From: Neocallimastix lanati (nom. inval.)
Taxonomy: Eukaryota; Neocallimastigomycota; Neocallimastigomycetes; Neocallimastigales; Neocallimastigaceae
DNA length: 64,000 nt
Assembly (NCBI GenBank): GCA_016946835.1
Contig: JACVTC010000219.1
Location: 66,001 to 130,000 of the forward strand
Reading direction: 5' to 3'
Shown here: piece by piece, positions 1-55,308 of the stretch
Layout of the letters: the number at the start of each line of letters is the position of its first letter
Position numbering within the stretch: position 1 is the stretch's first letter
The notes under the pieces: model-generated
Databases searched by the model: none
The model's input: the letters and a program-made list of their open reading frames with translations, nothing else
Told to the model about the DNA's origin: nothing
Translations under genes and position numbers: made by a program

Positions 1-1
1 A

Positions 2-3000
2 TCAAAAGATGTTGCTGATGAGAAACAAGGTGAAATTGAAAAGTTGATTGAAAAGATTACTATCATTGAAAAAATTGTTGAAGAAGAAAAGGCTAAATCC
101 TTTGATTTAGAAAAAGAATTAGCTGCTAATGAAGAAAGAATGAAAGAATTAGAAGTTGAAAAGAAAAATCAATTAAAATCTCTTATACCTATTGTTCTCC
201 AAAAGATTGTTCACAATGAAAAGGATAAGCAAGAATTTATTGAACGTCAAAACCTTGAAAGAGAAAAATCTAGACAATTTGTGTTGGAAAAGCAAAATGA
301 AATTGATGAGTTAAACCGTGAAATTAGTGATGCTAAGTCAAGAGCTGAAAATTATGAGAAAATAATCAATGAAAACAAAGAAAAAGTAGCTGATTTGGAA
401 AAGCAACTTTCTGCTAATGAAATCAAAGCTAGGGATATTAGTAATGCTAAACAAAATGAAATTCAACAATTACTTGAAAAGATTACTATTATAGAAACCA
501 TTGTTGAACAAGAAAAGGAAAAGGCTTCTGATTTAGAAAAACAGTTAGCAGATAATGAAGTTAAGGCTAGAGAAGCTGAAATGGTCAAACAAGATGAAAT
601 TGAGAGATTAAATCGTGAATTAAATGAACAAATTGAAGATGCTAAGAATAAGACACGTGACTATGAAAAAATAATTGCTGATGACAAGGAAAAGATTTCA
701 ACTTTGGAAAAGCAACTTATTGATAATGAAGAAAAATCAAGAGAAGATAGTGATGCTAAACAAATCGAAATTGAAAAATTAATTGAAAAAATAACTCTTA
801 CTGAAAAAATCGTTGAACAAGAAAAGGATAAAACAGATGATTTGGAAAGACAATTAGCTGAAAACGAAATGAAAGCAAGAGAAGCTGATGATGCTAAGCA
901 AGATGTAATTGATTCCTTAAAACGTGAAATTGAAGAAGCTAAATTGAAGACTCAAACTTATGAAAAGATGATTAATGATGATAAAGCAAAAATATCTGCC
1001 TTAGAAAAGCAACTTACCGACAGTGAAGCTAAAGCTAAGGAAGATAATGATGTTAAGCAATGTAAAATCCAACAATTAATTGAAAAGATTACAATCATCG
1101 AAAAAATAGTTGAAGAAGAAAAGCAGAAGGCGAATGAATTAGAAGAGCAATTAGCCGATAATATGGAAAGATCTAGAGCCATTGAAAGTAATAAGCAAGA
1201 TGAAATTGATGTCTTAACTCATCAAATTGAAGATGCTAAAAGCAAAGCTGAAGATTATGAACAGAAGATTTCAGATGCCATGGAAAATATTTCTTTATTA
1301 GAAAAACAACTTGCTGATAGTGAAGCTAAGAATAAGGAAGAAAATGAAGCAAAACAAAATGAGATTCAACAATTAATTGAAAAGATTAATGTAATAAAGG
1401 CTATTGCTGAACAAGAGAAAGCAAAAGTTAATAATTTAGAAAAGCAATTGGCTGATACTGAAATTAAAACTAGAGAAACTGATCATGCTAAGCAAAATAT
1501 TATTGACTCCTTAAACCATGAAATTGCTAATGCTAAGGATAAAATCTCTGAATTAGAAAAACAACTTGCTGATAATGAAATTAAAACTAGAGAACTCGGT
1601 GATGCTAAACAAAATGAAATTCAACAATTAATTGAAAAGATTACCATCATTGAAACCGTTGTTGAACAAGAAAAGGAAAGAGCTTCTGATTTAGAAAAAC
1701 AATTAGCCGATAATGAAGTCAAGGCTAGAGAAGCTGATACTGCTAAACAGAATGAAATTGAAACTTTAAATCGCGAGTTGAATGATCAAATTGAAGATGC
1801 TAAGAATAAGGCTCAAGATTATGAAAAGAAAATTATTGAAGCCAAGAATGAAATTTCATCTTTAGAAAAACAACTTACTGATAATGAAGCTAAAACCAAA
1901 GAAGACAATGAAGCTAAACAAAATGAGATTCAACAATTAATTGAAAAGATTACTATAATAGAAAGTATAGTAGAACAAGAAAGAGAAAGGGCAAATAATT
2001 TAGAGAAAAAATTAGTTAGTACTGAAGCTAAAGCTAGAGAAACGGATAATGCTAAGCAAAATATTATTGATTCCTTAAACCATGAAATTACTAATGCTAA
2101 GGATAAAATCTCTGAATTAGAAAAACAACTTGCGGATAATGAAGTTAAAGCAAGAGAACTGGGTGATGCCAAACAAAATGAAATTCAACAATTAATTGAA
2201 AAGATTACTATCATTGAAACCGTTGTTGAACGAGAAAAGGAAAGAGCTTCTGATTTAGAAAAACAATTAGCCGATAATGAAGTCAAGGCTAGAGAAGCTG
2301 ATACTGCTAAACAGAATGAAATTGAAACCTTAAATCGTGAATTAAATGAACAAATTGAAGATGCTAAGAACAAGACTCAAGAATATGAAAAGATGATTGC
2401 TGACGATAAGGAAAAGATTTCATTATTAGAAAAACAACTTTCAGATAATGAAGCTAAAGCCAAAGAAGACAATGAAGCTAAACAAAATGAAATTCAACAA
2501 TTAATTGAAAAGATTAATATTATTGAAAAAATTGTTGAAGATGAAAAAGCTAAATCTGATGGATTGAAAAAGGAATTGGAAGAGAATGAAGTTAAGGCTA
2601 GAAAAGCTGATGATGCAAAACAAGATATTATTAATTCCTTAAATCATGAAGTTGCAAATGCTAAAGATAAGATCTCTGAGTTAGAAAAACAACTTGCGGA
2701 TAATGAAATTAAAACTAGAGAACTCGGTGATGCCAAACAAAATGAAATTCAACAATTAATTGAAAAGATTACTATCATTGAAACCGTTGTTGAACAAGAA
2801 AAGGAAAGAGCTTCTGATTTAGAAAAACAATTAGCCGATAATGAAGTCAAGGCTAGAGAAGCTGATACTGCTAAACAGAATGAAATTGAAACTTTAAATC
2901 GTGAATTAAATGAACAAATTGAAGATGCTAAGAACAAGACTCAAGAATATGAAAAGATGATTGCTGACGATAAGAAAAAGATTTCATTATTAGAAAAACA

Positions 3001-6000
3001 ACTTTCAGATAATGAAGCTAAAGCCAAAGAAGACAATGAAGCTAAACAAAATGAAATTCAACAATTAATTGAAAAGATTAGTATTATTGAAAAAATTGTT
3101 GAAGATGAAAAAGCTAAATCTGATGGATTGAAAAAGGAATTGGAAGAGAATGAAGTTAAGGCTAGAAAAGCTGATGACGCAAAACAAGATATTATTAATT
3201 CCTTAAATCATGAAGTTGCAAATGCTAAAGATAAGATCTCTGAGTTAGAAAAACAACTTGCGGATAATGAAATTAAAACTAGAGAACTGGGTGATGCCAA
3301 ACAAAATGAAATTCAACAATTAATTGAAAAGATTACTATCATTGAAACCGTTGTTGAACAAGAAAAGGAAAGAGCTTCTGATTTAGAAAAACAATTAGCT
3401 GATAATGAAATCAAGGCTAGAGAAACTGAAACTGCTAAACAGAATGAAATTGAAACCTTAAATCGTGAATTAAATGAACAAATTGAAGATGCTAAGAACA
3501 AGGCTCAAGAATATGAAAAGATGATTGCTGACGATAAGGAAAAGATTTCATTATTAGAGAAACAACTTTCAGATAATGAGGAAAAGGCTAAGGAAGTCAA
3601 TGAAGCTAAACAAAATGAAATTCAACAATTAATTGAAAAGATTAGTATTATTGAAAAAATTGTTGAAGATGAAAAAGCTAAATCTGATGGATTGAAAAAG
3701 GAATTGGAAGAGAATGAAGTTAAGGCTAGAGAAGCTGATGATGCAAAACAAGATATTATTAATTCCTTAAATCATGAAGTTACAAATGCTAAAGATAAGA
3801 TCTCTGAGTTAGAAAAACAACTTGCGTTTAATGAAATTAAAACAAGAAAACTCGGTGATGCCAAACAAAGTGAAATTCAACAATTAATTGAAAAGATTAC
3901 TATCATTGAAGCCGTTGTTGAACAAGAAAAGGAAAGAGCTTCTGATTTAGAAAAACAATTAGCCGATAATGAAGTCAAGGCTAGAGAAGCTGATACTGCT
4001 AAACAGAATGAAATTGAAACTTTAAATCGTGAATTAAATGAACAAATTGAAGATGCTAAGAACAAGGCTCAAGAATACGAAAAGGTGATTGCTGACGATA
4101 AGGAAAAGATTTCATTATTAGAAAAACAACTTTCAGATAATGAAGCTAAGGCCAAAGAAGACAATGAAGCTAAACAAAATGAGATTCAACAATTAATTGA
4201 AAAGATTAGTATTATTGAAAAAATTGTTGAAGATGAAAAAGCTAAATCTGATGGATTGAAAAAGGAATTGGAAGAGAATGAAGTTAAGGCTAGAGAAGCT
4301 GATGATGCAAAACAAGATATTATTAATTCCTTAAATCATGAAGTTGCAAATGCTAAAGATAAGATCTCTGAGTTAGAAAAACAACTTTCGGATAATGAAA
4401 TTAAAACTAGAGAACTGGGTGACGCCAAACAAAATGAAATTCAACAATTAATTGAAAAGATTACTATCATTGAAACCGTTGTTGAACAAGAAAAGGAAAA
4501 GGCCACTAATTTAGAAAAACAATTAGCCGATAATGAAATCAAGGCTAGAGAAACTGAAACTGCTAAACAAGATGAAATTGAAACTTTAAATCGTGAATTA
4601 AATGAACAAATTGAAGATGCTAAGAACAAGGCTAAAGAATATGAAAAGATGATTGCTGACGATAAGGAAAAGATTTCATTATTAGAAAAACAACTTTCAG
4701 ATAATGAGGAAAAGGCTAAGGAAGTCAATGAAGCTAAACAAAATGAGATTCAACAATTAATTGAAAAGATTAGTATTATTGAAAAAATTGTTGAAGATGA
4801 AAAAGCTAAATCTGATGGATTGAAAAAGGAATTGGAAGAGAATGAAGTTAAGGCTAGAGAAGCTGATGACGCAAAACAAGATATTATTAATTCCTTAAAT
4901 CATGAAGTTGCAAATGCTAAAGATAAGATCTCTGAGTTAGAAAAACAACTTGTGGATAATGAAATTAAAACTAGAGAACTGGGTGACGCCAAACAAAATG
5001 AAATTCAACAATTAATTGAAAAGATTACTATCATTGAAACCGTTGTTGAACAAGAAAAGGAAAAGGCCACTAATTTAGAAAAACAATTAGCCGATAATGA
5101 AATCAAGGCTAGAGAAACTGAAACTGCTAAACAGAATGAAATTGAAACCTTAAATAGTGAATTAAATGAACAAATTGAAGATGCTAAGAATAAGGCTCAA
5201 GAATACGAAAAGATGATTGCTGACGATAAGGAAAAGATTTCATTATTAGAGAAACAACTTTCAGATAATGAAGCTAAGGCCAAAGAAGACAATGAAGCTA
5301 AACAAAATGAGATTCAACAATTAATTGAAAAGATTAGTATTATTGAAAAAATTGTTGAAGATGAAAAAGCTAAATCTGATGGATTGAAAAAGGAATTGGA
5401 AGAGAATGAAGTTAAGGCTAGAGAAGCTGATGATGCAAAACAAGATATTATTAATTCCTTAAATCATGAAGTTGCAAATGCTAAAGATAAGATCTCTGAG
5501 TTAGAAAAACAACTTTCGGATAATGAAATTAAAACTAGAGAACTGGGTGATGCCAAACAAAATGAAATTCAACAATTAATTGAAAAGATTACTATCATTG
5601 AAACCGTTGTTGAACAAGAAAAGGAAAAGGCCACTAATTTAGAAAAACAATTAGCCGATAATGAAGTCAAGGCTAGAGAAGCTGATACTGCTAAACAAGA
5701 TGAAATTGAAACTTTAAATCGTGAATTAAATGAACAAATTGAAGATGCTAAGAACAAGACTCAAGAATATGAAAAGATGATTGCTGACGATAAGGAAAAG
5801 ATTTCATTATTAGAGAAACAACTTTCAGATAATGAGGAAAAGGCTAAGGAAGTCAATGAAGCTAAACAAAATGAAATTCAACAATTAATTGAAAAGATTA
5901 GTATTATTGAAAAAATTGTTGAAGATGAAAAAGCTAAATCTGATGGATTGAAAAAGGAATTGGAAGAGAATGAAGTTAAAGCTAAAGAAGCTAATGATAC

Positions 6001-9000
6001 AAAACAATGTTTGATTGATGAATTAAATAGCAAAATATATAATGCTCAAGAAAAGATTTCATCATTAGAAAAACAACTTACTAATAATGAACAAAAAACT
6101 ATGGAGCTTTGTGAACAAAAGCAAAATGAAATTCAACAATTGATAGAGAAGATTACTATTATTGAAAAGATTGTTGAAAATGAAAAAGAAAAGGCTAATG
6201 AATTGGAGGAACAATTAGCTGATAATATGGAAAAATCTAAAGTCATTGAGAATGTTAAACAAGATAAAATTAATGAATTAACCAGTCAAATCGAAAATGC
6301 TACAAGTAAAATTCAGGATTATGAGAATATGATTGATGATAACATGAATAAAATATCGTCTTTAGAGCAACAGTTATATGATAATGAACAAAAAGCAAAG
6401 GAATTAAATGAGCAAAAACAAAATGAAATTAAGCAATTAATAGAAAAAATTAAAATAATTGAAAAAATTGTTGAAGAAGAAAAGGCCAAAACTGATGACT
6501 TAGAGAAACAATTAGTGGATAATGAAGAAAAGTCTAGAAAAGTTGAGAGTGCTAAACAAGATGTTATAGATAATTTAAATCGTGAAATTCAAGATGCAAG
6601 AGATAATATTTCATCATTGGAAAAGCAACTTATTGATAATGAGCAAAAGACTAAAGGACTTAGTGAGCAAAAACAAATTGAAATTCAACAATTACTTGAA
6701 AAAATTACTATTATTGAAAAGATTGTTGAAAATGAAAAAGAAAAAGCTAACGAATTAGAAGAACAATTGGCTAATAATATGGAAAAATCTAGAGTTATTG
6801 AAAATGATAAACAAGATGAGATCGATACATTAAATCGTGAATTAAATGATCAAATTGAAGATGCCAAGAATAAAGCGGAAGACTATGAAAAGATGATAGC
6901 CGATGATAAGGAAAGAATTTCTTCATTAGAGAGGCAACTTGTTGATAATGAAGCTAGAACTAGAGAACTTAATGATGATAAACAAAGAGAAATTAAGCAG
7001 TTGCTTGAGAAGATAACTATCATTGAAAAGATTGTTGAAGATGAAAAGGCGAAGTCCGATGAACTAGAAAAACAATTAGCAGAAAATGAAATTAAAGCAA
7101 GAGAAGCTGATGATGTTAAACAAGATATTATTGATTCCTTAAATCGTGAATTAAATGATCAAATTGAAGATGCCAAGAATAAAGCGGAAGACTATGAAAA
7201 GATGATAGCCGATGATAAGGAAAGAATTTCTTCATTAGAGAGGCAACTTGTTGATAGTGAAGCTAGAACTAGAGAACTTAATGATGATAAACAAAGAGAA
7301 ATTAAGCAGTTGCTTGAGAAGATAACTATCATTGAAAAGATTGTTGAAGATGAAAAGGCGAAGTCCGATGAATTAGAAAAACAATTAGCAGAAAATGAAG
7401 TTAAAGCCATGGAAGCTGATACTGCTAAACAGAATGAAATTGAAACTCTTAATCGTGAGTTGAATGATCAAATTGAAAATGCTAAGAACAAGGCTCAAGA
7501 ATATGAAAAGATGATTGCTGACGATAAGGAAAAAATTTCATTATTAGAAAAACAACTTTCAGATAATGAAACAAAAGCTAAGGAAGATAATGAAGCTAAA
7601 CAAAATGAGATTCAACAATTAATTGAAAAAATTACAATTATTGAAAAGATTATTGAAAATGAAAAGGCAAAGTCTGATGAATTAGAAAAACAATTAGCAG
7701 AAAATGAAGTTAAAGCCATGGAAGCTGATACTGCTAAACAGAATGAAATTGAAACTCTTAATCGTGAGTTGAATGATCAAATTGAAAATGCTAAGAACAA
7801 GGCTCAAGAATATGAAAAGATGATTGCTGACGATAAGGAAAAAATTTCATTATTAGAAAAACAACTTTCAGATAATGAAACAAAAGCTAAGGAAGATAAT
7901 GAAGCTAAACAAAATGAGATTCAACAATTGATTGAGAAAATTACTATTATTGAGAAGATTGTTGAAGATGAGAAGGCTAAATCTGATGAATTAGAAAAGC
8001 AATTAGCAGAAAATGAAGTTAAGGCCAGAGAAGCAGATGATGTTAAACAAGATATTATTGATTCTTTAAATCGTGAAATTGATGATGCTAAAGACAAGAT
8101 TTCATATTTAGAAAAACAACTTTCAGATAATGAAGAAAAAGCTAAGGAAGATAATGAAGCTAAACAAAATGAAATTCAACAATTGATTGAGAAAATTACA
8201 ATTATTGAAAAGATTGTTGAAAATGAGAAGGCTAAATCTGATGGATTGGAAAAGCAATTAGCAGAAAATGAAGTTAAAGCCATGGAAGCTGATACAGCTA
8301 AACAGAATGAAATTGAAACTTTAAATCGTGAATTAAATGATCAAATTGAAAATGCTAAGAACAAGGCTCAAGAATATGAAAAGATGATTGCTGACGATAA
8401 GGAAAAAATTTCATTATTAGAAAAACAACTTTCAGATAGTGAGGAAAAGGCTAAGGAAGATAATGAAGCTAAACAAAATGAGATTCAACAATTGATTGAG
8501 AAAATTACTATTATTGAAAAGATAGTTGAAGATGAGAAGGTTAAATCTGATGAATTAGAAAAGCAATTAGCGGAAAAAGAGGTTAAAGCAAGGGAAGATA
8601 CTGATGCTAAACAAGATATTATTGATTCCTTAAATCGTGAAATTGATGATGCTAAAGACAAGATTTCATTATTAGAAAAACAACTTTCAGATAATGAAAC
8701 AAAAGCTAAGGAAGATAATGAAGCTAAACAAAATGAAATTCAACAATTGATTGAGAAAATTACAATTATTGAAAAGATAGTTGAAGATGAGAAGGCTAAA
8801 TCTGATGAATTAGAAAAGCAATTAGCAGAAAATGAAGTTAAGGCCAGAGAAGCAGATGATGTTAAACAAGATATTATTGATTCTTTAAATCGTGAAATTG
8901 ATGATGCTAAAGACAAGATTTCATATTTAGAAAAACAACTTTCAGATAATGAAGAAAAAGCTAAGGAAGATAATGAAGCTAAACAAAATGAAATTCAACA

Positions 9001-12000
9001 ATTGATTGAGAAAATTACAATTATTGAAAAGATTGTTGAAAATGAGAAGGCTAAATCTGATGGATTGGAAAAGCAATTAGCAGAAAATGAAGTTAAAGCC
9101 ATGGAAGCTGATACAGCTAAACAGAATGAAATTGAAACTTTAAATCGTGAATTAAATGATCAAATTGAAAATGCTAAGAACAAGGCTCAAGAATATGAAA
9201 AGATGATTGCTGACGATAAGGAAAAAATTTCATTATTAGAAAAACAACTTTCAGATAGTGAGGAAAAGGCTAAGGAAGATAATGAAGCTAAACAAAATGA
9301 GATTCAACAATTGATTGAGAATATTACTATTATTGAAAAGATAGTTGAAGATGAGAAGGCTAAATCTGATGAATTAGAAAAGAAATTAGCCGAAAATGAG
9401 GTTAAAGCAAGGGAAGATACTGATGCTAAACAAGATATTATTGATTCCTTAAATCGTGAAATTGATGATGCTAAAGACAAGATTTCATTATTAGAAAAAC
9501 AACTTTCAGATAATGAAACAAAAGCTAAGGAAGATAATGAAGCTAAACAAAATGAAATTCAACAATTGATTGAGAAAATTACAATTATTGAAAAGATAGT
9601 TGAAGATGAGAAGGCTAAATCTGATGAATTAGAAAAGCAATTAGCGGAAAATGAGGTTAAAGCAAGGGAAGATACTGATGCTAAACAAGATATTATTGAT
9701 TCCTTAAATCGTGAAATTGATGATGCTAAAGACAAGATTTCATTATTAGAAAAACAACTTTCAGATAATGAAGAAAAAGCTAAGGAAGATAATGAAGCTA
9801 AACAAAATGAAATTCAGCAGTTAATTGAGAAAATAACAATTATTGAAAAGATTGTTGAAAATGAAAAGGCAAAGTCTGATGAATTAGAAAAGCAATTAGC
9901 AGAAAATGAAGTTAAGGCTAGAGAAGCTGATACTGCTAAACAGAATGAAATTGAAACTTTAAATCGTGAGTTGAATGATCAAATTGAAAATGCTAATTAC
10001 AAGGCTCAAGAATATGAAAAGATGATTGCTGACGATAAGGAAAAAATTTCATTATTAGAAAAACAACTTTCAGATAATGAAACAAAAGCTAAGGAAGATA
10101 ATGAAGCTAAACAAAATGAAATTCAACAATTGATTGAGAAAATTACAATTATTGAAAAGATAGTTGAAGATGAGAAGGCTAAATCTGATGAATTAGAAAA
10201 GCAATTAGCGGAAAATGAGGTTAAAGCAAGGGAAGATACTGATGCTAAACAAGATATTATTGATTCCTTAAATCGTGAAATTGATGATGCTAAAGACAAG
10301 ATTTCATTATTAGAAAAACAACTTTCAGATAATGAAGAAAAAGCTAAGGAAGATAATGAAGCTAAACAAAATGAAATTCAGCAGTTAATTGAGAAAATAA
10401 CAATTATTGAAAAGATTGTTGAAAATGAAAAGGCAAAGTCTGATGAATTAGAAAAGCAATTAGCAGAAAATGAAGTTAAGGCTAGAGAAGCTGATACTGC
10501 TAAACAGAATGAAATTGAAACTTTAAATCGTGAGTTGAATGATCAAATTGAAAATGCTAATTACAAGGCTCAAGAATATGAAAAGATGATTGCTGACGAT
10601 AAGGAAAAAATTTCATTATTAGAAAAACAACTTTCAGATAATGAAACAAAAGCTAAGGAAGATAATGAAGCTAAACAAAATGAAATTCAACAATTGATTG
10701 AGAAAATTACTATTATTGAAAAGATAGTTGAAAATGAAAAAGCTAAATCTGATGAATTAGAAAAGCAATTAGCAGATAATGAAGTTAAAGCTAAGGAAGC
10801 TGATACTGCTAAACAGAATGAAATTGAAACTCTTAATCGTGAGTTGAATGATCAAATTGAAAATGCTAAGAACAAAGCTCAAGAATATGAAAAGATGATT
10901 GCTGATGATAAAGAAAAGATTTCATTATTAGAAAAACAACTTTCAGATAATGAAACAAAAGATAAGGAAGCTGAAGAAAAAGTTGAAGAAAATATTCGTC
11001 TTATGCAAAATATAAATAAAGATTTAGCTCGTCAACTTGAAAATTCGAAGAATAATATTCAAGGTTATGAAGATTTAATTATTAATGCAATGGACAAGAT
11101 TCAAACATTAGAAAATCAGCTTAATGAAAATGATCAAAAGATGAAAGAACTGAATGATGCTAAAAATGATGAAGTTAATAATTTAATTGAAAAAATTATT
11201 ATTATTGAAAAGACTCTTGAAGAAGAAAAGACTAAATCAAGTGACTTAGAAGAAAAATTAAGAAACAATATAGAAAAATCAAATGATTTAGAAAACCAAT
11301 TAGTAGACAATGAAATTAAAGCCAGGGAAGCTAATATTGCAAAGCAAGATGAAATAGAATCTTTAAATCGTGAGTTAAATAATCAAATTGAAAATACTAA
11401 AAACAAAGTTCAGGAGTATGAAAAGAAAATTAACGAAGCTAAAGAAGAGATTTCAAATTTAGAAAAGCAACTTGTTAGCACTACAGCTAAAGCAAAAAAG
11501 GATAGTGAAGCTAAACAAAATGAAGTTCAACAATTAAATGAAAAAATTTCTATTATTGAAAAAATTATTGAAGATGAAAAGGCTAGATCTAATGATTTAG
11601 AAAAACGATTAGCCGAAAATGAGATGAAGACAAAAGAAGCTAATGATGCTAAACAAAATATAATTGATTCATTAAATCACAATATTGATGATGCTAAAAA
11701 TAAAATTTCTGAATTAGAAAAACAAATTGCTGATAATGAAGAAAAACTAAGAAAACTTCGTGAAGCTAAGCAAGATGAAATTCAGCAATTAATTGAAAAA
11801 ATTAATATTGCTGAAAAGATTGTTGAAGATGAAAAGGCTAAATCTAATGATTTGGAAAAGCGATTAGTAGACAGTGAAATGAAGATTAAGGAAGTTAATG
11901 ATGCTAAACAAAATATTATTGATTCCTTAAATCATGAAATTAGTGGAGCTAAAGGTAAGATTTCATCTTTAGAAAAACAGCTTTCAGATAATGAAGAAAA

Positions 12001-18000: not shown

Positions 18001-21000
18001 GGAAAAAGATAATTCACTTACAGAAGAATATTTTGAAATTACGGAAGAAGTAATTCCAAATGATTATGAAGGTGATTATGAAGATGAAATTTCAGATTCA
18101 TTAGATAATAATTCATCAAAGCCAATTGTTCCAAATGATGAAGATTATGTAATTTATATTGAAGATGTTGTTGAAGATCCTACTTTGGATGATTTAATTG
18201 ATAAAATGGATGAAAGTACAAGAAACATTACACTTGATGAACCATCTGAAGAAATTATTAATGTTAAAGAATCAAAACCAACTGAAGAAATAATAAAATT
18301 TGAAGATATAGAAGAATCAAAACCAAAGGAAGTAGTTCAAGTAGATAAAATAGAAGAATGTAAAAGAAGTATTGCAATTGATGAACCAACTGAAGAAATT
18401 ATTATTTCTAATTTGAATAATGAGGAATTCAGTCTTGATGATGATATTTCTAAGAAACCGGCAACGGAAAAAGATAATTCACTTACAGAAGAATATTTTG
18501 AAATCACAGAAGAAGTAATTCCAAATGATTATGAAGGTGATTATGAAGATGAAATTTCAGATTCATTAGATAATAATTCATCAAAGCCTATTAATCCAAA
18601 TGATGAAGATTATGTAATTTATATTGAAGATGTTGTTGAAGATCCTACATTAGATGATTTAATTGATAAAATGGATGAAAGTACAAGAAACATTAAATTT
18701 GATGAACCATCTGAAGAAATTATTAATGTTAAAGAATCAAAACCAACTGAAGAAATAATAAATTTTGAGGATATAGAAGAATCAAAACCAAAGGAAGTAG
18801 TTCAAGAAGATAAAGTAGAAGAATGTAAAAGAAGTATTGCATTTGATGAACCAACTGAAGAAATTATTATTTCTAATTTGAATAATGAGGAATTCAGTCT
18901 TGATGATGATATTTCTAAGAAACCGGCAACGGAAAAAGATAATTCACTTACAGAAGAATATTTTGAAATCACGGAAGAAGTAATTCCAAATGATTATGAA
19001 GGTGATTATGAAGATGAAATTTCAGATTCATTAGATAATAATTCATCAAAGCTTATTGATCCAAATGATGAAGATTATGTAATTTATATTGAAGATGTTG
19101 TTGAAGATCCTACTTTGGATGATTTAATTGATAATATGGATGAAAGTACAAGAAACATTAAATTTGATGAACCATCTGAAGAAATTATTAATGTTAAAGA
19201 ATCAAAACCAACTGAAGAAATAATAAATTTTGAGGATATAGAAGAATCAAAACCAAAGGAAGTAGTTCAAGAAGATAAAGTAGAAGAATGTAAAAGAAGT
19301 ATTGCATTTGATGAACCAACTGAAGAAATTATTATTTCTAATTTGAATAATGAGGAATTCAGTCTTGATGATGATATTTCTAAGAAACCGGCAACGGAAA
19401 AAGATAATTCATTTACAGAAGAATATTTTGAAATCACGGAAGAAGTAATTCCAAATGATTATGAAGGTGATTATGAAGATGAAATTTCAGATTCATTAGA
19501 TAATAATTCATCAAAGCTTATTGATCCAAATGATGAAGATTATGTAATTTATATTGAAGATGTTGTTGAAGATCCTACTTTGGATGATTTAATTGATAAA
19601 ATGGATGAAAGTACAAGAAACATTAAATTTGATGAACCATCTGAAGAAATTATTAATGTTAAAGAATCAAAACCAACTGAAGAAATAATAAATTTTGAGG
19701 ATATAGAAGAATCAAAACCAAAGGAAGTAGTTCAAGAAGATAAAGTAGAAGAATGTAAAAGAAGTATTGCATTTGATGAACCAACTGAAGAAATTATTAT
19801 TTCTAATTTGAATAATGAGGAATTCAGTCTTGATGATGATATTTCTAAGAAACCGGCAACGGAAAAAGATAATTCACTTACAGAAGAATATTTTGAAATC
19901 ACGGAAGAAGTAATTCCAAATGATTATGAAGGTGATTATGAAGATGAAATTTCAGATTCATTAGATAATAATTCATCAAAGCTTATTGATCCAAATGATG
20001 AAGATTATGTAATTTATATTGAAGATGTTGTTGAAGATCCTACTTTGGATGATTTAATTGATAATATGGATGAAAGTACAAGAAACATTAAATTTGATGA
20101 ATCATTTGAAGAAATTATTAAAAATGAAAATATTGAAAAATTAAAGCGTGAAAAAGAAGAACAAGTTGATAATATTAAAGAATCAAAACCTGAAAATGAA
20201 GAACAAGTTGAAAATATTGGAGAATCAGAGCATGAAAATAAATATCAAGTTGAAAATATTGAAGAATCGAAACCTGAAAATGAAGATCAAGTAGAAAATA
20301 TTGAAGAAGCTAAAAGGGATATTACATTTGATGAACCAATTGAAGATATTATTAAAATTGAGAATATTGAAGAATCAAAACCTGAAAATGAAGATCAAGT
20401 AGAAAATATTGAAGAAGCTAAAAGGGATATTACATTTGATGAACCAATTGAAGATATTATTAAAATTGAGAATATTGAAGAATCAAAACCTGAAAATGAA
20501 GAACAAGTTGAAAATATAGAGGAATCAAAACCTGAAAATGAAGATCAAGTAGAAAATATTGAAGAAAATAAAAGAGATATTACATTTGATGAACCAATTG
20601 AAGATATTATTAAAATTGAGAATATTGAAGAATCAAAACCTGAAAATGAAGAACAAGTTGAAAATATTGAGGAATCAAAAACTGAAAATGAAGAACAAGT
20701 TGAAAATGATGAAAAATCAAATTATGAAAAAGAACAAGTTGAAAATATTGAAGAAACCAAAAGAGATATTACATTTGATGAACCAATTGAAGATATTATT
20801 AAAATTGAGAATATTGAAGAATCAAAACCTGAAAATGAAGAACAAGTTGAAAATATTGAGGAATCAAAACCTGAAAATGAAGATCAAGTAGAACATATTG
20901 AAGAAAATAAAAGAGATATTACATTTGATGAACCAATTGAAGATATTATAAGAATTGATAATATCGAAGAATCAAAACCTGAAAATGAAGAACAAGTTGA

Positions 21001-24000
21001 TAATATTGAGGTGTCAAAACCTGAAAATGAAGAACAAGTTGAAAATGATGAAAAATCAAATTATGAAAAAGAACAAGTTGAAAATATTAAAGAATCGAAA
21101 CCTGAAAATGAAGATCAAGAAGAAAATATTGAAGAAGCTAAAAGAGATATTACATTTGATGAACCAATTAAAGATATTATAAAAATTGATAATATTGAAG
21201 AATCAAAACCTGAAAATGAAGAACAAGTTAAAAATATTGAAGAATTAAAACCTGAAAAAGAACAAATTGAAAATATTGAAGAATTAAAACCTGAAAATGA
21301 AGATCAAATAGAACATATTGAAGAAAATAAAAGAGATATTACATTTGATGAACCATTTGAAGATATTATAAAAATTGATAATATTGAAGAATCAAAACCT
21401 GAAAATGAAGAACAAGTTGAAAATAATGAAAAATCAAATTATGAAAAAGAACAAGTTGAAAATATTGAGGAATCAAAACCTGAAAATGAAAATATGATAA
21501 AAAAGATTCATAATAGTTATTTTATAAACCTCTCTGATGATGGTAAATTATATATTGGTAATGGTAATGATATTTTATTGAATAATATTCAATTACGTTT
21601 ATCTGATCCAATTGAAAGGAATTATAAATCTGAAAATGAAGATCAAGTTGAAAATATTGAAGAATCAAAACCTGAAAATGAAGATCAAGTAGAACATATT
21701 GAAGAAAATAAAAGAGATATTACATTTGATGAACCGATTGAAGATATTATTAAAATTGAGAATATTGAAGAATCAAAACCTGAAAATGAAGAACAAGTTA
21801 AAAATATTGAAGAATCAAAACCTGAAAATGAAGAACAAGTTAAAAATATTGAAGAATCAAAACCTGAAAATGAAGAACAAGTTGAAAATATTGAAGAATC
21901 AAAACCTGAAAATGAAGATCAAGTAGAACATATTGAAGAAAATAAAAGAGATATTACATTTGATGAACCATTTGAAGATATTATAAAAATTGATAATATT
22001 GAAGAATCAAAACCTGAAAATGAAGAACAAGTTGAAAATAATGAAAAATCAAATTATGAAAAAGAACAAGTTGAAAATATTGAGGAATCAAAACCTGAAA
22101 ATGAAAATATGATAAAAAAGATTCATAATAGTTATTTTATAAACCTCTCTGATGATGGTAAATTATATATTGGTAATGGTAATGATATTTTATTGAATAA
22201 TATTCAATTACGTTTATCTGATCCAACTGAAAGGAATTATAAATCTGAAAATGAAGATCAAGTTGAAAATATTGAAGAATCAAAACCTGAAAATGAAGAT
22301 CAAGTAGAACATATTGAAGATAATAAAAGAAATATTACATTTGATGAACCAATTGAAGATATTATAAAAGTTGATAATATCGAAGAATCAAAACCTGAAA
22401 ATGAAGAACAAGTTGAAAATGATGAAAAATCAAATTATGAAAAAGAACAAGTTGAAAATATTGAAGAATCAAAACCTGAAAAAGAAGATCAAGTTGAAAA
22501 TATTGAAGAAACTAAAAGAGATATTACATTTTATAAACCAATAATTGAAAATATTATTAAAATTGATAATATCGAAGAATCAAAACCTGAAAATGAAGAT
22601 CAAGCTGAAAATATTAAGGAATTAAATTCTGAAAAAGAAGAACAAATAGAAAAAATTGAAGAATCAAAACCTGAAAATGAAGATATGATAAAAAAGATTC
22701 ATAATAGTTATTTCATAAACCTCTCTGATGATGGTAAATTATATATTAGTAATGGTAATGATATTTTATTGAATAATATTCAATTACGTTTATCTGATCC
22801 AACTGAAAGGAATGACAAATCAAATGTTATTTCTAATTTGAATAATAAAGAATTCGGTATTGATGATGATATTTCAAAGAAACTAGAAACAGAAAAAGAT
22901 AATTCACTTACAGAAGAATATTTTGAAATCACAGAAGAAGTCATCCCAAGTGATTATGAAGGTGATTATTTTGATGAAATTTCAAATTCATTAAATAATA
23001 ATTCATCAAAGTCTATTGATCCAAATGACGAAGATTATGTAATTTATATTGAAGATGTTGTTGAAGATCCTACTTTGGATGATTTATTAGATAAGATGGA
23101 TGAAAGTACAAGAAACATTACATTTGATGAACCATCTGAAGAAATTATTAAAGATGAAAACATTCAAGAAACAAAACCTGAAAAAGAAGATCAAATGAAG
23201 AAAATTTCAAATAATTATTATATAGATTCATTTGATGATAGTAAATTATCATTTGGTAATGGTAATGATATTTTATTAAATAATATTCAATTACGTTTAT
23301 CTGATCCAACTGAAAGGAATGACGAATCAAATGTTATTTCTAATTTGAATAATAAAGAATTCGGTCTTGATGATGATATTTCAAAGAAACTAGAAACAGA
23401 AAAAGATAATTCACTTACAGAAGAATATTTTGAAATCACAGAAGAAGTCATCCCAAGTGATTATGAAGGTGACTACTTTGATGAAATTTCAAATTCATTA
23501 AATAATAATTCATCAAAGTCTATTGATCCAAATGACGAAGATGATGAAATTTCAAATTCATTAAATAATAATTCATCAAAGTCTATTGATCCAAATGACG
23601 AAGATTATGTAATTTATATTGAAGATGTTGTTGAAGATCCTACTTTGGATGATTTATTAGATAAGATGGATGAAAGTACAAGAAACATTACATTTGATGA
23701 ACCATCTGAAGAAATTATTAATGTTAAAGAATCAAAACCAACTGAAGAAATAATAAAATTTGAAGATATAGAAGAATCAAAACCAAAGGAAGTAGTTCAA
23801 GAAGATAAAATAGAAGAATGCAAAAGAAATATTACATTTGATGAACCAACTGAAGAAATTATTATTTCTAATTTGAATAATGAGGAATTCAGTCTTGATG
23901 ATGATATTTCTAAGAAACCGGCAACGGAAAAAGATAATTCACTTACAGAAGAATATTTTGAAATCACGGAAGAAGTAATTCCAAATGATTATGAAGGTGA

Positions 24001-27000
24001 TTATGAAGATGAAATTTCAGATTCATTAGATAATAATTCATCAAAGCTTATTGTTCCAAATGATGAAGATTATGTAATTTATATTGAAGATGTTGTTGAA
24101 GATCCTACTTTGGATGATTTATTAGATAAGATGGATGAAAGTACAAGAAACATTACATTTGATGAACCATCTGAAGAAATTATTAAAGATGAAAACATTC
24201 AAGAAACAAAACCTGAAAAAGAAGATCAAATGAAGAAAATTTCAAATAATTATTATATAGATTCATTTGATGATAGTAAATTATCATTTGGTAATGATAG
24301 TGATATTATCTTAAATAAAATGTCATTATGCATAACTGATCAAAATAAAAGGAATGATATATCAGTTGCTCTTTCCGAAGAACCAAAATTAAAAACTGCA
24401 AAACAAAATGTCAAAAAGCTTGATAGCAATAAAAATAAAGAAGCTCAAAATAATTATTATTTAAATATATCTGATGATGGAAGATTATCATTTGGTGGTA
24501 TTGATCTCTTAATAAATTTTTGGCCGTTACGTTTAGCAAATAGCAATGAAAACCTAAAAGAAAAAGAAGATTCAGTTAAAACTTCTCAATCTAAAATAAC
24601 TACTGAAGAATCAAAAGAAGTTTCAGTTAAAGCTAATAAACCTAATATAGTTACTGAAAAACTAAAAGGAGAAGAAATTACAATTAAAACTACTGAATCA
24701 GAAGTAAATGAAGAAATAAAGAAAGAAAAGGTTTCTGTTAAAATTACTGAACCAGAAGTAATTACTAAAGAAATAAAAGAAGAAATTCCAATTGAAACTA
24801 ATGAACCAGAAGTAATTGTTGAAGGATTAAAAGAAGTTCCTGCTAAAGCTGTAGAATTAAAGCAAAGTACTAAGGAACCAAAAGAAGTTGTTATTACAAA
24901 TACTGAACTAGGAATAAATACTAAAGAATTAAAAGAAGTTCCAACAAAGACTTCTGAACCAGAAATGATTGTAGAAAACCCAAAAGAAAAAGAAGTTTCA
25001 ATTAAATCTCCAGAATCAGAAATAATTACTGTAGCAACAAAAAATAATGGTGCTCAAGTTGAAGCTTCATTTATCTCTCATGTTGAAGCTTCTTTAATTG
25101 CAGAAATTTCAAGATTACATTGCCCATTAGAGGAATCAGTTATTTCACCTATTGAAATAACTAATAATGAAGACGTTCTTTATGAGGGCCCAAGTATATT
25201 AGAACCTTCAGTTCAAATTCCAAAGGATATTGCAAAGTCTAAAATTGAAACAGCTCCAATTGTTATTGAAAATAGTAAAGTCACAGATTCTAAAAATAGT
25301 AAGAAAAAATTTATAAAAAAGAAAATTATTTCTAAAACTATTACTACAAGAAATAACAAAGAATCAAATGAGCAATCATATATTTCAAATATTTTTTCAG
25401 ACCCACAAAAATCAGTAATTGTTAAAGAATTTACACCAGTAAGGACTGAAACTATTGAAATAACAAGAAACCCTATTAATAGAAAGAAAAAATATCACAA
25501 GAAAACTGTTATTTCTAAAAAAATTACTACCAATATTATAAAAACACCAGAATTAGTTTCTAAAGAAAAGGTAAATAAATGGACAAAATTAATTCCGTCT
25601 GTTGTTGAAATAATTGTTAATCAAGCTACAATAAATGATGATATAAGTGAGACTGAAAAACAAAATGATATGAAAAAAATAATGAATGAATATAATAGTA
25701 TTAATAAGAATGAGGAACCAGTATCAATAGAAGAACCGAAGTTTACATTTGAAGAAAAATCAAATAAATGGAAGGAATTAATTCCAAATGTTATAAAAAC
25801 TATTGTTAATCAAGTAAAGGTAAGTAATGATGAAAATAATAGGAAAAATGATTTGGACAAATTAATGAAAGAATACAGTTTAATTAATAATAATGAAGAG
25901 TCGTCTACAAAGAACATTCAATTACTAAATAATAATGACTTAAAAAAATTTATACCAAATGCACTAGAAATAAATACTGGTGATTTACCAATTATAAATG
26001 AAAATGTTGATATTAATGAAGAAATTGAAGAAAATAAGAAACAAAGCAATGGATCAAATCCTGAAAATATATCATTGGAAAATGAAAATCAATTAAAAAA
26101 TCTAGTACCAATTGCTCTTGAAATAATTGCTAGTCATATACCAAAAGCGCTTGAAATGATTGTTAATAAAACTAAGGAAGAAAGCAACAACGTTGCTAAT
26201 AATAAATTAGTTTCTAACGATAATGAACAAAATGATGAAAATGATATTGAAAAATCTATTGTTAAAGAAATATCGATTGAATACGAAAATAAATTAAGAA
26301 ATTTAATTCCTACAGCCCTTGAAATGATTACAGGAAAAATTCCGAATGCTCTTGAAATTTTAATTAATGAAACTAAAGAAAATAAAGAAAAAAAAAGTAA
26401 TGAAAAAAGTAATGAAGAAAATATTGAAAATTCAATTATTGAAGATATATCTATTGAATATGAAAATCATTTAAAGGACTTAATTCCAACTGCTATTGAA
26501 ATGATTATTGGAGAAGTGCCATCTGAACTTGAAACAATAGTTTATCAAAATAGTATAGGTGAAGATAAAGATGATATAACTGAATTCATTCCTAAAGACA
26601 TTCTCATAGAAGATGACAATTTAATTCCAACTTCAAAAATAGAAGTAAATAAAATGAATGAAAAAATTTCTAACTTAGAAAATAGTCTTACTAATGTAAG
26701 AAATGAAAATAAAAAATTACAAGAATATATTATAGATATAAAAAATGAAAATGAAGAATTGAGAAATAAATTGGAAAATTACAGTAATATTAAGAATGAA
26801 AATGAGTTATTAAAAAATGAATTGGAGACCTATACTAATGTAAGAAATGAAAATAAAAAATTACAAGAATATATTATAGATATAAAAAATGAAAATGAAG
26901 AATTGAGAAATAAATTGGAAAATTACAGTAATATTAAGAATGAAAATGAGTTATTAAAAAATGAATTGGAGACCTATAAGACTGAACTTAAAAAGAATTC

Positions 27001-29026
27001 AAGATGTAAAACCGAAAAAATTGCTAAATTAAATGATGATATTAAAAAATTAAAGAAGAGCATAAGTATAATGAATCAATTAAAAAAGAATATTGAAACT
27101 GGAAACATTAATGATATGAAACTTCTTAATAATCAATTACTTAAGCAAAAGGAAAAAATAATTCAATTGCAAAATATTAAACCATTACCTCCTGAAGTTA
27201 CTAATGATGATTTATACAGAATCAACAATAAAATTGATAACTTAAAGAATGTATTAGGTCAAATAAACAGTAATAAGATTAACAATAGAGAAATTTCTGA
27301 TAAACTTATGTCTATTGCTATTGATGAAAAAGAAAATGAAAAAATAAAAAAATTAAAAAATAAATTAGAAAAATCTAATTATTGTATCAATGAACTAAAG
27401 GAAAAAACGAAGCAATTGGAACGAAAGAGTCAGTTAAGTAATAACCAGGAAAAACAAGTCTTAGAGAATCTTAATAATAACAATGACAATCAAATAGATA
27501 TTGATGAAACAAACGATGATAATAAGAATAAACTAATAAACAAATTCGAAACTGATATTAATTCATTTGTTGATGTTAAAGATGATTCTAGTAACTCAGA
27601 TAGATTAGATATTGATTCATTTATAAATGCTAAAGATGATTTAAGTAACACTAATGAATTAGATGTAGACTTATTTGTTGATGCAAAAGATGAATTAAAT
27701 AATATAACTATATTAAATATGAATAATATTGGTGATTTCAAAGGTGAACCTCCAGAATTAGAATTTAATAATCGAGATATTTATATTGAAGAAATTAATA
27801 AATTTAAGGAAGAAAATCAAAAATTGATTGAAGAATTAGATAAATTAAAAGATATTGTATCGTTTGAAAAGAAAAAGCAAAACCATATTTCAGAAGAAAA
27901 GAAATCTTTAGAAGATCAGATTAAAAAATTAGAAAATGTAATTGAGAAATATACTTATAAATTTAAGAAATCTGAAGATACTATTCAAGAATTAAGTAAT
28001 GATAATATTGATCTTAATAAAAAGATTAAAGCAATTGCAGAATCTTATGAAACATTAAAGATTTTATACGAAAAGCAAAAAGCTAAAAATCAAAATGATA
28101 TCCTTACCAAAGAAATTATAAGGGATCTTAATAGAGAAAAACAAAGCGATAGAAAAAGATGTGTTCCATTTACAGAGAATAAACGTCGTAGAATGGAATT
28201 AGCTAAAAGATTAAATAAGGAAAATAATAACTTGAAAAATAAACCAAATAAATTAATTACTATCAAAAGTAAAAAGAGAAAAATGAATCCATTGGAAAGT
28301 AGTATTCAAAAGGAAATTAATTTAATACCAGAAATAAAGCCAATAAGCTTTATTGGACATATTTATAATTTACTTGGATACACTGTAACTACCACATCGG
28401 TTCTTTTAAGTTTATTATATACTCGTGATTATCTTAATGCACAACGATTTGTTGATAAGAATAAAATAACTTATATCAACGAGAATAAAGAGGTTCCAAC
28501 ACCTGGTCAGCTTGTAAGTGGTAAATTAACTAATACATTAGTAAGTTCAATAGCCTTACTATTCCTTTTAAATATTTTGTATTGTAAAAGTAGAAAGAGT
28601 GAAGAAATCAAGAAAGAAAGCAGTGAAAAAATGAATGAAATAGATCAATCAAATTTAAATTTTAAAAAGCAATCATCGGCAAATTCGAAAATTGAGGTTA
28701 TTGGAGAAAGTAGTTTTATAACTGAACCAAACAAAAATAATGAAAATCATACCGAATTTAATGATAAATCAATCTCAATTTTAAAAATAAATGAAAATAA
28801 TAATAATTTATTGAATAAGCAATATTTTTTGCCTGAAGAGCAATTAGATGAAGTTAAACAATCGTTAGAAAGTATTAAACATGAAGTTGATAATGAGGAT
28901 CAATTAAAAATGGAAAATAAGAATAAAGAATTAAGAAATAATAAATTAAGTTTAGAAGGTGACAAGCCAATAATTAAACCTCATTCTTTAATCGATATGG
29001 TTGAACATGAAGAAAATTCAAATTGA
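2..29026 (+). CDS. Giant coiled-coil / acidic-repeat protein with C-terminal membrane anchor (5' partial, 2 exons)
   Basis: Read as join(2..17363, 17481..29026), at least 9,635 residues; the frame is open to the left edge, so the true start lies outside. Domains in order: a Lys/Glu-rich coiled coil of LEKQL-DNE / EIQQLIEKITIIEK units (to about 15600); three basic patches KRKRKVKK followed by Thr runs (15630-16445); LIP-type hydrophobic motifs (LIPTAIEMIINQ); an acidic region of 155-residue and 14-residue-type repeats (17481-24300); two more Lys-rich/Thr patches (about 25295, 25480) and several LIP motifs (25570-26540); another coiled coil (26640-28150); then two hydrophobic stretches (about 28345-28430 and 28510-28590) and a polar tail. 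Both halves share the basic, LIP and NYYLNISDD motifs, supporting one gene. I do not recognise an ortholog. A membrane-anchored filament or tether (giantin- or nesprin-like in layout only) is inference. Unlike its neighbours it has only one intron visible. Confidence 0.75.
1612..5990 (+). repeat. Eight tandem 564-bp (188-residue) coiled-coil units
   Basis: The motif EIQQLIEKITIIET recurs at 1612, 2176, 2740, 3304, 3868, 4432, 4996 and 5560, exactly 564 bp apart. Each unit breaks into four LEKQL-started blocks of 57, 46, 39 and 46 residues. Long stretches are identical between copies at the DNA level, including silent positions, so the array has expanded or been homogenised recently. The last unit diverges after about 5970. 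Confidence 0.93.
7030..10960 (+). repeat. Second coiled-coil repeat block, 309-bp and 255-bp modules in mixed order
   Basis: Modules of 103 residues (57+46) and 85 residues (39+46) alternate irregularly. Near-identical segments recur at spacings of 564 bp (for example 9901 and 10465) and 819 bp (for example 8222 and 9041). The pattern fits unequal exchange between modules of the same two kinds as in the upstream array. Confidence 0.85.
17364..17480 (+). other. 117-nt in-frame intron joining the two giant open frames
   Basis: The donor is CAAG|GTAATT and the acceptor TTTTCTTTAG|TT, with TACTAAT-type branch sequences inside (about 17405-17430). It is phase 1 and a multiple of three. It removes the only in-frame stop (TAA, 17399-17401). 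The spliced downstream frame resumes directly in a repeat unit (VNLNEKKLDLDEVSKKP, like SNLNNEEFSLDDDISKKP in later units). In-frame, the first ATG after the stop is at 17741, in the middle of a repeat, which argues against a separate second gene. Alternatives are a nonsense mutation in one continuous frame, or intron retention making a short form. Confidence 0.72.
17481..20095 (+). repeat. Tandem 465-bp (155-residue) acidic repeats
   Basis: The segment encoding DVVEDPTLDDL recurs at 17701, 18166, 18631, 19096, 19561 and 20026, always 465 bp apart. Units contain KESKPTEEII, EECKR-I-FDEPTEEIIISNLNNEEF and EEVIPNDYEGDYEDE. Related units return at 22830-24300, including a 63-bp internal duplication near 23470-23600. 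Confidence 0.93.
20140..22700 (+). repeat. Short acidic repeats (IEESKPENEEQVEN type) with a 615-bp internal duplication
   Basis: A roughly 14-residue Glu/Asn-rich unit repeats many times, broken up by KRDITFDEPIEDIIKI blocks and a 40-residue block containing NSYFINLSDDGKLYIG. The stretch from about 21311 is repeated 615 bp downstream almost unchanged (21496 and 22111 are corresponding points). Confidence 0.9.
28345..28600 (+). other. Putative C-terminal membrane anchor of the giant protein
   Basis: These are the only clearly hydrophobic segments in the whole protein: one around YTVTTTSVLLSLLY and one around LVSSIALLFLLNILY, separated by about 40 polar residues and followed by CKSRKSEEIKK. 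A two-pass hairpin leaving both the giant N-terminal part and the roughly 140-residue tail on the same side is the simplest reading. The organelle is not shown by the sequence. Confidence 0.6.
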
Positions 29027-29776
29027 TTTAAGGAATATTAATAAACTGAAAAAGTTAAAAACAAAATAAAATAATATTTGATCATTTATAATCTGAAATT
29101 GAAGAGTAAATCATATACATTAATAATGTATAAATTCTATTTTAAAATATAAAATAAAAAAAAAATTATTGAATAATACTTTAACATATAAAAATATATT
29201 AGAAAATTATAAATGTTAATTAGAAAATTTTGTGCAATTAACGTTACACATATATGCATTGATAAGCTGCATTGGATGCATATGCACATTCATATGCGAC
29301 TATATCGCAGTACATCATATAACACATATACAACTCTTTTAGCATCATAATAATTTTATTAAATACAATAACCAATAACATATATATCATAGTATAATTT
29401 TGTTTGAATTATTTGAATAAAATTGTTCAAATAAAGATTACCAAAAAAAGATATCATATAACACATATACAACTCTTTTAGCATCATAATAATTTTATTA
29501 AATACAATAACCAATAACATATATATCATAGTATAATTTTGTTTGAATTATTTGAATAAAATTGTTCAAATAAAGATTACCAAAAAAAGATATAATTTAT
29601 AAATAAATTATTTTTAACAATTATATTTTATAAATATTTTTATCAATACTAATATGTAATATTATAAATTAATTTAATAATTAACATAATTAAAAGTTTC
29701 ATAAATTAGTATTTCATATTATAATGTAAAAAAAAAAAAAAATAAAATAAAAAAAAAAAATAAATAAATAAATAAA

Positions 29777-45705: not shown

Positions 45706-46674
45706 TTAATATCTTTTTCTTCTATCCTTGTCACTACTTCTTCTTTTTTCTCTTGACTTTGACCTTGACCTTGACCTTGAAATAGAATATTTACTTTTTT
45801 TATATTCATTATATGATAATGAGGAGTAAGTATGAGAATGTCGATAATCATTAGAATGATGAGGATGTGAGTATTTCGAATGAGAATATCTTGATCTTGA
45901 ATGTGAACGAGTTCTAGACCTTGATTTTAATCTTGATCTTGAATGTGAACGAGTTCTAGACCTTGGCTTTAATCTTGATCTTGATTTTGACCTTGATCTT
46001 GACCTTGACCTTGATCTTGATCTTATTTTTGATTTTGAATATATAGGTGAACGAGACCTTGATCTTGATCTTGATCTTAAATTTGACTTTGATCTTGACC
46101 TTTTCCTTGACCTTGATTTGGAGTGAGAATGAGATCTTGATAAAGATGTTATATTTGATTGTTTTGATGCTATTTTTTCATTATTACTACTATTATTATT
46201 TTTATTATCATTATTGTCATTATTATTACTATTTTTACTATTACTATTAGAATTATTATTAGTAGTAGCAGTAGTAATAGTCGTAGAAAGGGTATATTTT
46301 GAATTAGAAATCATATTTTCCTTAGGAATATCTTCATTGTTATCTACTTTTATATTATCTTTTTCTGTTTCTTGATTTAATATATTATTGTGTAATTCAT
46401 TTTTAGTCAAGAGATTATCATTTTTATCTTTATTGTCATTATTCGTATTAATATTGTCTTTGTATCTAAAAACGTGTAAAAAATTACAATATGCCAATTT
46501 CGGACAACCAGGTAAATTATTATTATCTTCATGTCTTTCATTATGACCTTTTAAAATTATTGATATTGAAATATTGTAATTGTTAATATATATTTAAATT
46601 CAATAAATAAATTTATTAATTAATTAATTAATTAATAATAAATAAATAAAATATATATATATATATATATATAG

Positions 46675-46718
<44 letters not shown>

Positions 46719-55303: not shown

Positions 55304-55308
55304 TTCAA

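Follow-up and report, generated by a model that had tools for sequence, protein, structure and literature searches.

Giantin has a coil of 3,056 residues, about 0.5 micrometre long, which a 2016 review gives as the longest identified to date (PMC5082667), and golgins are described as anchored by their carboxy terminus (PMC4707255). In trypanosomes, NUP-1 is reported to consist of 17 near-perfect repeats of 144 residues, with a mass of over 400 kDa and no predicted transmembrane helix (PMC3313915), and FAZ10 is presented as a giant cytoskeletal protein built of repeats (52 of them, each of 35 residues), which has two coiled-coil regions and likewise no predicted transmembrane helix (PMC5358337). 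As for new introns, accounts from Cryptococcus and Schizosaccharomyces describe intronization, in which an internal coding stretch becomes an intron by means of new splice boundaries (PMC2740785, PMC3629103), and the Cthe_2159 genes of gut fungi are said to contain putative young introns, some of them flanked by duplicated coding sequence (PMC6712302). Both subjects meet at a locus of the gut fungus Neocallimastix lanati that we describe here. In a stretch of 64,000 nucleotides (contig JACVTC010000219.1, hereafter C134, positions 66001-130000; this is the window, and plain coordinates below are positions in it), two giant open frames are separated by a single stop codon, and we consider it fairly likely, taking all parts together, that they belong to one three-exon gene for a protein of 11,149 residues whose junction interval has been intronized.

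Both frames lie on the plus strand in the same phase, at 2-17401 (5,799 codons, its 5' end open at the window edge) and 17402-29026 (3,874 codons) according to a frame scan of the window, and one TAA (17399-17401) is all that stands between them. An earlier reading made from the letters of this stretch (the sequence-only reading) had placed the stop inside a 117-nt GT...AG interval whose splicing would join the frames, and both statements hold: the interval occupies 17364-17480, is in phase 1 with a length that is a multiple of three (CAAG/GTAATT...TTTTCTTTAG/TTAATT), and its removal joins the frames with no new stop, leaving only the terminal one in the spliced coding sequence. The upstream frame runs beyond the 5' edge of the window, being open from C134:61796 (7,201 codons), and in phase with its exon 2 there is an ATG first exon outside the window at C134:61254-61596, which starts MENNQEKYEKLSVSESDTST and ends in the donor AAAG/GTAAAT; the acceptor of exon 2 (C134:61803-83363, of which 1-17363 lie in the window) is in phase and reads TTAAAG/AAAATG. 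Splicing out the exon 1 intron and the 117-nt interval leaves three exons, the last at 17481-29026 (3,847 codons and a TGA stop), with a coding sequence of 33,450 nt and a product of 11,149 residues or ~1,300 kDa (~1.3 MDa). The sequence-only reading had recognized the giant gene and put it at more than 9,600 residues, a figure that is too low, the gene starting outside the window. It may plausibly rank with the largest proteins of fungi, though certain peptaibol synthetases exceed it in length.

The strongest evidence for a single gene comes from a paralog in the same genome. In the 199 Mb searched (762 contigs), the protein encoded by 25001-29023 gave five matches (all 35 candidates were scored), namely the window itself and four pieces of contig C741 at 57-63% identity. 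The paralog lies at C741:2127285-2140116, and its large exon is one frame of 4,101 codons (2127811-2140113) that begins LTENENKARGVHFDLNN, like exon 2 of the giant gene (ENENKARGVHFDLNN), and ends in the membrane anchor of exon 3; exon 2 is homologous to the first part of this large exon, and the C-terminal parts of exon 3 show the identities just given. Its first exon (MENYQEKYENLSESGSDSSTALLDL...) is homologous to exon 1 of the giant gene (57% identical) and is followed by an in-phase intron of 193 nt, so that the spliced paralog has 4,212 residues. Since in the paralog no stop interrupts the frame between the counterparts of the exon-2 start and the exon-3 end, and the first exon is shared, the two giant frames very likely constitute one gene, as the sequence-only reading had proposed. 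That the downstream frame is a gene of its own, with its own promoter and a start at ATG 17741, strikes us as very improbable: 17741 is indeed the first ATG after the stop and the place where the database protein P0001 begins, but both halves form one frame in the paralog, 87 repeat-matching codons precede this ATG, and an AT-rich intergenic stretch is missing, with a GC content of 0.287 and 0.258 in the flanking 600 nt on each side and of 0.11 in the 2 kb that precede exon 1.

P0001 (3,406 residues, from a JGI-sourced contig of 21,948 bases) corresponds to the downstream frame from ATG 17741 onwards and is identical to it over 1,555 residues of unique sequence, while it is shorter by 310 residues (equal to two 155-residue units) and by a further 50, and its repeats carry six substitutions; a collapse of short reads, or a second allele, may account for these differences. 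In P0001 the TGA stop is translated as Trp, in keeping with code 4, and the protein looks like the product of an intron-blind gene caller using that code. The 465-nt units at 17509-20121 (97% match) may vary in copy number or be mis-assembled, as P0001 is shorter by the length of two units. A further entry, P0003 (435 residues), is the extreme C-terminus of the giant protein, 100% identical over the query. A search of the genome for CBM10/dockerin domains gave 1,440 initial candidates, and the 150 that were scored all passed the cut-off (at least 150 matches), as against none in 14 control genomes; such domains abound in anaerobic gut fungi. The published N. lanati genome (200.97 Mbp in 970 contigs) is described as a PacBio assembly at 62x depth, made with MECAT and ARROW (PMC8561657). 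An error in assembly or base calling, i.e., a stop that does not exist in the organism, could be suspected in a repetitive gene from a PacBio-based assembly, the more so as the paralog has no stop there. We regard this, too, as highly unlikely, given that the difference at the stop is a substitution, the frame is intact over 11,000 codons, and the reported depth and ARROW polishing argue against it; P0001, apparently built from other data, begins right after the stop, which fits a stop at that place, although it could also mark a contig end.

The interval itself almost certainly originates from coding DNA, judging from its alignment to the paralog. Where the paralog reads EKKIPVNYYLNVGDDGKLTIGDDNDNILNYWPLRLNNSNEKE, the giant gene has ERKLQ, then, within the interval, GNYHLNISKNKK, the stop and TNTHTNTTNNNNANINNILCYCTFSLV, and after it NLNEKK. 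The counterpart of the interval in the paralog is 90 nt of in-frame coding DNA, with which it aligns end to end at a DNA score of 38, compared with a mean of -7.2 (standard deviation 5.9) for dinucleotide shuffles, none of 2,000 reaching it; the first 36 nt alone have 23 identical positions and the last 36 nt have 24, again with no shuffle in 2,000 doing as well in either case. At the sites relevant to splicing the paralog carries TT at the donor GT, AA at the acceptor AG and TTA (Leu) at the TAA, and the net gain of 27 nt in the interval falls in a region of ACTAAT/AAT microsatellite. The 5' end of the interval encodes an in-frame copy of the NYYLN-S motif (GNYHLNISKNKK, running up to the stop), a motif that is coding at seven other places in the giant protein and at three in the paralog, the latter including the counterpart of the interval. 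Sliding the exon-2 copy over 207,916 positions (both strands of the 104-kb region) gave eight places scoring at least 31 of 42: the exon-2 copy itself, six coding copies in exon 3 (five at 32, one at 31) and the interval (31), the next best place scoring 29. At the donor position the exon-2 copy reads TTAATTAT, the same as the paralog. We take the coding state as ancestral because the motif has further coding copies in both paralogs, and this polarity is set by motif copies within the two paralogs, not by an outgroup species. The opposite course, a de-intronization of the paralog, was weighed and rejected, as these further coding copies suggest that the coding state is the older one. Residue shuffles of the motif on the interval alone gave a modest result: 21 of 1,000 did as well as the part that precedes the stop, and 171 of 1,000 as well as the interval taken in full.

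It is rather probable that this interval is removed as an intron, wholly or in part, and intronization is the best reading of its features. Its ends are GT and AG, its removal preserves phase, and it is homologous to in-frame coding sequence of the paralog; the GT and AG, neither of which has a counterpart there, bracket the only stop in phase, and the downstream frame is intact. A bracket test, whose rule was set from the interval itself (an in-phase GTAA[AT]...[CT]AG pair with at least 11 pyrimidines of 14 around a random codon), found such a bracket around none of 1,500 codons in the giant coding sequence and none of 1,500 in the paralog. In comparison with five other inferred introns of the genome, its length (117 nt) is within their range (106-217 nt) and its donor (GTAATT) is similar to theirs (GTAAAT, GTAAAG, GTATTT, GTATAT, GTAAAT), while its GC content and pyrimidine tract lie outside their range (see below). 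The branch sites named in the sequence-only reading do exist, as three ACTAAT motifs at -79, -67 and -58 from the 3' end of the interval; they carry little weight, lying inside the ACTAAT/AAT microsatellite. Exon 3 is also free of internal stops: none of the 2,059 single-base changes that could create one is present, the other two forward frames contain 277 and 899 stops, and three stops would be expected in exon 3 after only 0.0044 neutral substitutions per site. The ratio of nonsynonymous to synonymous substitution rates (dN/dS) against the paralog, whose values also cover the period that preceded the stop, is 0.61 over 113 codons of exon 1; exon 2 gives 0.14 at its start (776 codons) and 0.39 at its end (173), and exon 3 gives 0.61 for the first 100 aligned codons and 0.41 (467 codons), 0.28 (447) and 0.15 (145) for later blocks. 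Constraint is weaker in exon 1 and in the first 100 exon-3 codons than in the other blocks.

We envisage that, after the divergence of the paralogs, a coding copy of the ~40-residue NYYLN...WPLRL segment would have gained a stop (where the paralog keeps TTA), an in-frame ACTAAT/AAT expansion of net +27 nt, a 5' GT and, at the 3' end, an AG with a pyrimidine-rich tract, and that this copy would now be removed as a 117-nt phase-1 intron. If so, it is an unusually readable birth of an intron from coding sequence, in which a paralog of the same genome preserves the coding state and thereby allows the changes at stop, donor and acceptor to be traced by direct comparison.

Several observations weigh against this reading. 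The bracket test is sensitive to its threshold, since with the looser donor GTA[ATG] brackets surround 0 and 63 of 1,500 codons (giant coding sequence and paralog, respectively) at 11 pyrimidines, 24 and 90 at 10, and 95 and 172 at 9. Without the pyrimidine rule the stop is surrounded by 21 in-phase GT...AG pairs, out of 54 pairs of 50-300 nt within 300 nt of it, among which the interval stands out by its donor together with a pyrimidine-rich acceptor. Its acceptor has 11 pyrimidines of 14, as compared with 5-7 in the five reference introns, which would therefore fail the bracket test, and its GC content is 0.145 against 0.058-0.123 in those introns; a pyrimidine tract is not this genome's usual need, and the interval is not a typical intron. 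Given that it still has a single stop and a kept phase (a multiple of three), any intronization must be recent, and a nonsense mutation would fit nearly as well. A hidden Markov model derived from ten coding copies of the motif puts the interval at no more than 6.1 bits, a value equalled by 5 of 2,000 shuffles. Among four recent 155-codon repeats dN/dS is 0.37, 0.83, 0.83, 0.22 and 0.22, with one pair undefined, and the 87 codons that lead from the interval to the first ATG give 0.38-1.12 against eight later repeats, a spread that favours neither side. Intronization is, moreover, rare in the Cryptococcus study, which gives five cases for 28,256 introns studied (PMC2740785), and for other gut-fungus genes apparent recent introns are described as lacking spliced-transcript support and may be artefacts (PMC6712302).

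The main rival is thus a bare nonsense mutation, i.e., a broken copy in which the TAA is recent, nothing is spliced, a 7,313-residue protein without an anchor is made, the downstream frame is a relic that has yet to decay and the C741 paralog does the job. Such a history would be served by the paralog's TTA, one substitution away from TAA, by an interval of coding origin that has stayed colinear and in phase and contains just one stop, by the reported rarity of intronization, by five reference introns that do without the very tract that makes the bracket look special, and by the existence of a second complete gene; it has to face a GT and an AG, new relative to the paralog, that bracket the stop in phase, and 3,847 codons that contain no other stop or frameshift. 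On balance we think it unlikely, though it deserves to be taken seriously, and we retain intronization as the preferred reading.

This preferred reading also has a form in which the interval acts as a switch. Spliced transcripts would give the anchored protein of 11,149 residues, and retention would give a soluble rod of 7,313 residues ending NYHLNISKNKK. Young introns are often incompletely spliced, and translation into a retained interval would stay in frame and motif-like as far as the stop, but that stop could equally send retained transcripts to decay, and we consider such a switch doubtful. Just as doubtful is the full combination, in which a repeated coding segment, stop included, has turned into a young intron serving as a switch, in a protein whose rod of 5,800-6,500 residues is ~2 times as long as the longest coil of the 2016 review and whose family, within the searches made, is limited to N. 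lanati and near-identical entries. Public RNA sequencing data for N. lanati, made by the genome authors as Illumina paired reads with a Trinity assembly, are described with the genome (PMC8561657).

The predicted protein is dominated by a rod. Residues 1578-6723 (5,146 residues; 191-15628 in the window) contain no proline, and most of this rod consists of alternating 85- and 103-residue units, with a hydrophobic period that peaks at 3.54 residues, the value that 9 heptads and 2 hendecads (24 turns) in 85 residues would give. When each window of the protein was compared with 100 of its own shuffles, a test of periodicity in sequence and not of structure, all shuffles were beaten by 76 of 81 windows in residues 900-6700, by none of 32 in the acidic region, by three of six in the second coil and by 12 of 17 in the paralog rod (900-2220); in residues 150-900 only one of eight did so, though the averaged spectrum peaks at the same period. 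The rod is followed at 15635-17363 by basic patches (KKRKRKVKK...TTTT, three times), three LIP motifs (patches and LIP at residues 6726-7066) and one NYYLN-S copy, and then by a degenerate acidic repeat unit that extends to the junction. Downstream of the junction come the acidic repeats (17509-24677, residues about 7300-9700, including the 465-nt array), a second set of basic patches with five LIP motifs (25301-26542, residues 9909-10322) and a second, shorter coiled-coil-like stretch (26624-28156, residues 10350-10860). The protein ends in a two-segment anchor with hydrophobic segments at residues about 10929-10947 (28361-28417, weak by hydropathy) and 10979-11006 (28511-28594) and a tail of ~140 residues; a further weak hydrophobic window lies at residue 10177. 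The anchor is the best-conserved C-terminal block, 145 codons around it being 83% identical to the paralog (the block with a dN/dS of 0.15). The presence of basic patches, LIP and NYYLN-S motifs on both sides, noted in the sequence-only reading, was borne out: there are seven LIP-type motifs upstream of the junction and five downstream, as against a mean of 0.02 and a maximum of 1 in 200 shuffled proteins. The paralog has a rod about one third as long, its prolines returning at residue 2138. The ends are conserved and the rod is variable, ~3 times longer in the giant gene.

Homology searches agree with the earlier statement that the layout belongs to no described family. In the pieces searched against Pfam (exon 3 and two pieces of exon 2 at E up to 0.1, the remainder of exon 2 inside the window and two pieces of the paralog at E up to 0.01, exon 1 being left out), nothing exceeded a curated cut-off except a short Pox_A_type_inc repeat in the coiled coil, at 21.7 bits with a cut-off of 21.4. 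This match was taken as a coiled-coil artefact. A sequence search of the PDB with the C-terminal 841 residues gave no match, and the C-terminus found none among 1,956 scored candidate proteins of about 5,320-16,930 residues; of the other protein searches, one returned a single match, P0001, and another, which scored the 7,998 candidates sharing most words, returned two, P0002 and P0003. Within these searches, the family appears to be confined to N. lanati and near-identical database entries. The NCBI protein P0002, from N. lanati, covers 611 of the 4,212 paralog residues, which, together with the long-protein search that found no match to the C-terminus, suggests how giant genes get missed.

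The surroundings of the gene contain several other features. Soon after its stop there is a tandem duplication of 139 nt with a 100% match (29314-29593). On the minus strand, 45706-47507 holds a split gene for a splicing factor like the 23/35-kDa subunits of U2AF, with an RS-rich C-terminus, whose spliced core matches PDB 4yh8 at E 9.8e-27; it supplied three of the five reference introns, and further upstream exons are likely. To us it presumably stands closer to ZRSR2, a factor of the minor spliceosome. Also on the minus strand, 51881-56019 is a copia-type retrotransposon with gag-like and pol-like stop-to-stop frames that overlap by 31 nt, in which the Pfam families RVT_2, SH3_retrovirus and Pol_BBD are above their cut-offs and rve and Retrotran_gag_2 below; on the paralog's contig, C741:2112145-2116845 is a copia-like single open frame of 1,567 codons, identified by eye. 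A minus-strand frame of 257 residues at 42341-43114 has, by eye, the look of a multi-pass membrane protein and gave no Pfam match at E up to 0.01. On the plus strand, 58229-59320 encodes a cysteine-rich protein with a C-terminal RING finger (Pfam zf-C3HC4_3), and 62488-63510 is a frame with a tandem repeat of the IASPVPQR type.

With regard to function, a cytosolic N-terminus, a long rod, flexible acidic repeats and a C-terminal anchor of two membrane segments would make a membrane-tethered spacer or scaffold. Because the ends are conserved, the rod is variable and the anchor is C-terminal, we lean on a spacer or tether in a membrane, without naming a particular one, and hold this reading to be about evenly balanced between right and wrong. 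At a helix rise of 0.1485 nm per residue, a rod of some 5,800-6,500 residues would reach ~0.9-1 micrometre if fully helical. The basic patches, which we take to resemble nuclear import signals, make a nuclear-envelope scaffold in the manner of NUP-1 possible by analogy. What speaks against these functional readings is that neither the Pfam pieces nor the PDB gave an informative domain match and that AlphaFold confidence (pLDDT) is low, at 54.7 for the anchor region and 36.9 for the LIP/basic region (two sequences each), values too poor to build fold searches on. The two paralogs, alike in their conserved ends and about threefold apart in the length of the rod, offer a natural test of what a very long coiled-coil spacer does.

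Compared with the systems described at the outset, the giant protein resembles giantin and the golgins in its very long coiled coil (as seen in sequence periodicity), its anchor on the C-terminal side and a presumed cytosolic N-terminus. Unlike giantin, it would have a rod about twice as long, made mostly of tandem 85/103-residue units, and unlike golgins it has acidic repeats, LIP motifs, two hydrophobic segments and a tail of ~140 residues; the golgin family is absent among the Pfam matches of the scanned pieces, and by sequence the giant protein is not a golgin. A KASH/nesprin-type linker has a single membrane segment and a short lumenal end at the extreme C-terminus, and this identity was rejected for a protein with two hydrophobic segments and ~140 residues after the second. 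With NUP-1, compared by description, it shares the giant repetitive coiled coil, whereas its predicted C-terminal anchor sets it apart from a lamina protein without a membrane segment. FAZ10 is similarly giant, repeat-built and endowed with two coiled-coil regions, and differs in its repeat units and in having no such predicted anchor. As to the interval, the Cryptococcus and Schizosaccharomyces cases differ from the present one, which is known from genomic sequence alone, and in which the intron would have been made from one copy of a repeated protein segment that carries a stop and an expanded microsatellite. Like the introns of the Cthe_2159 genes, it is putatively young and belongs to the Neocallimastigomycota; unlike them, it lies in another gene and would have arisen in another way, from coding sequence of the gene itself.

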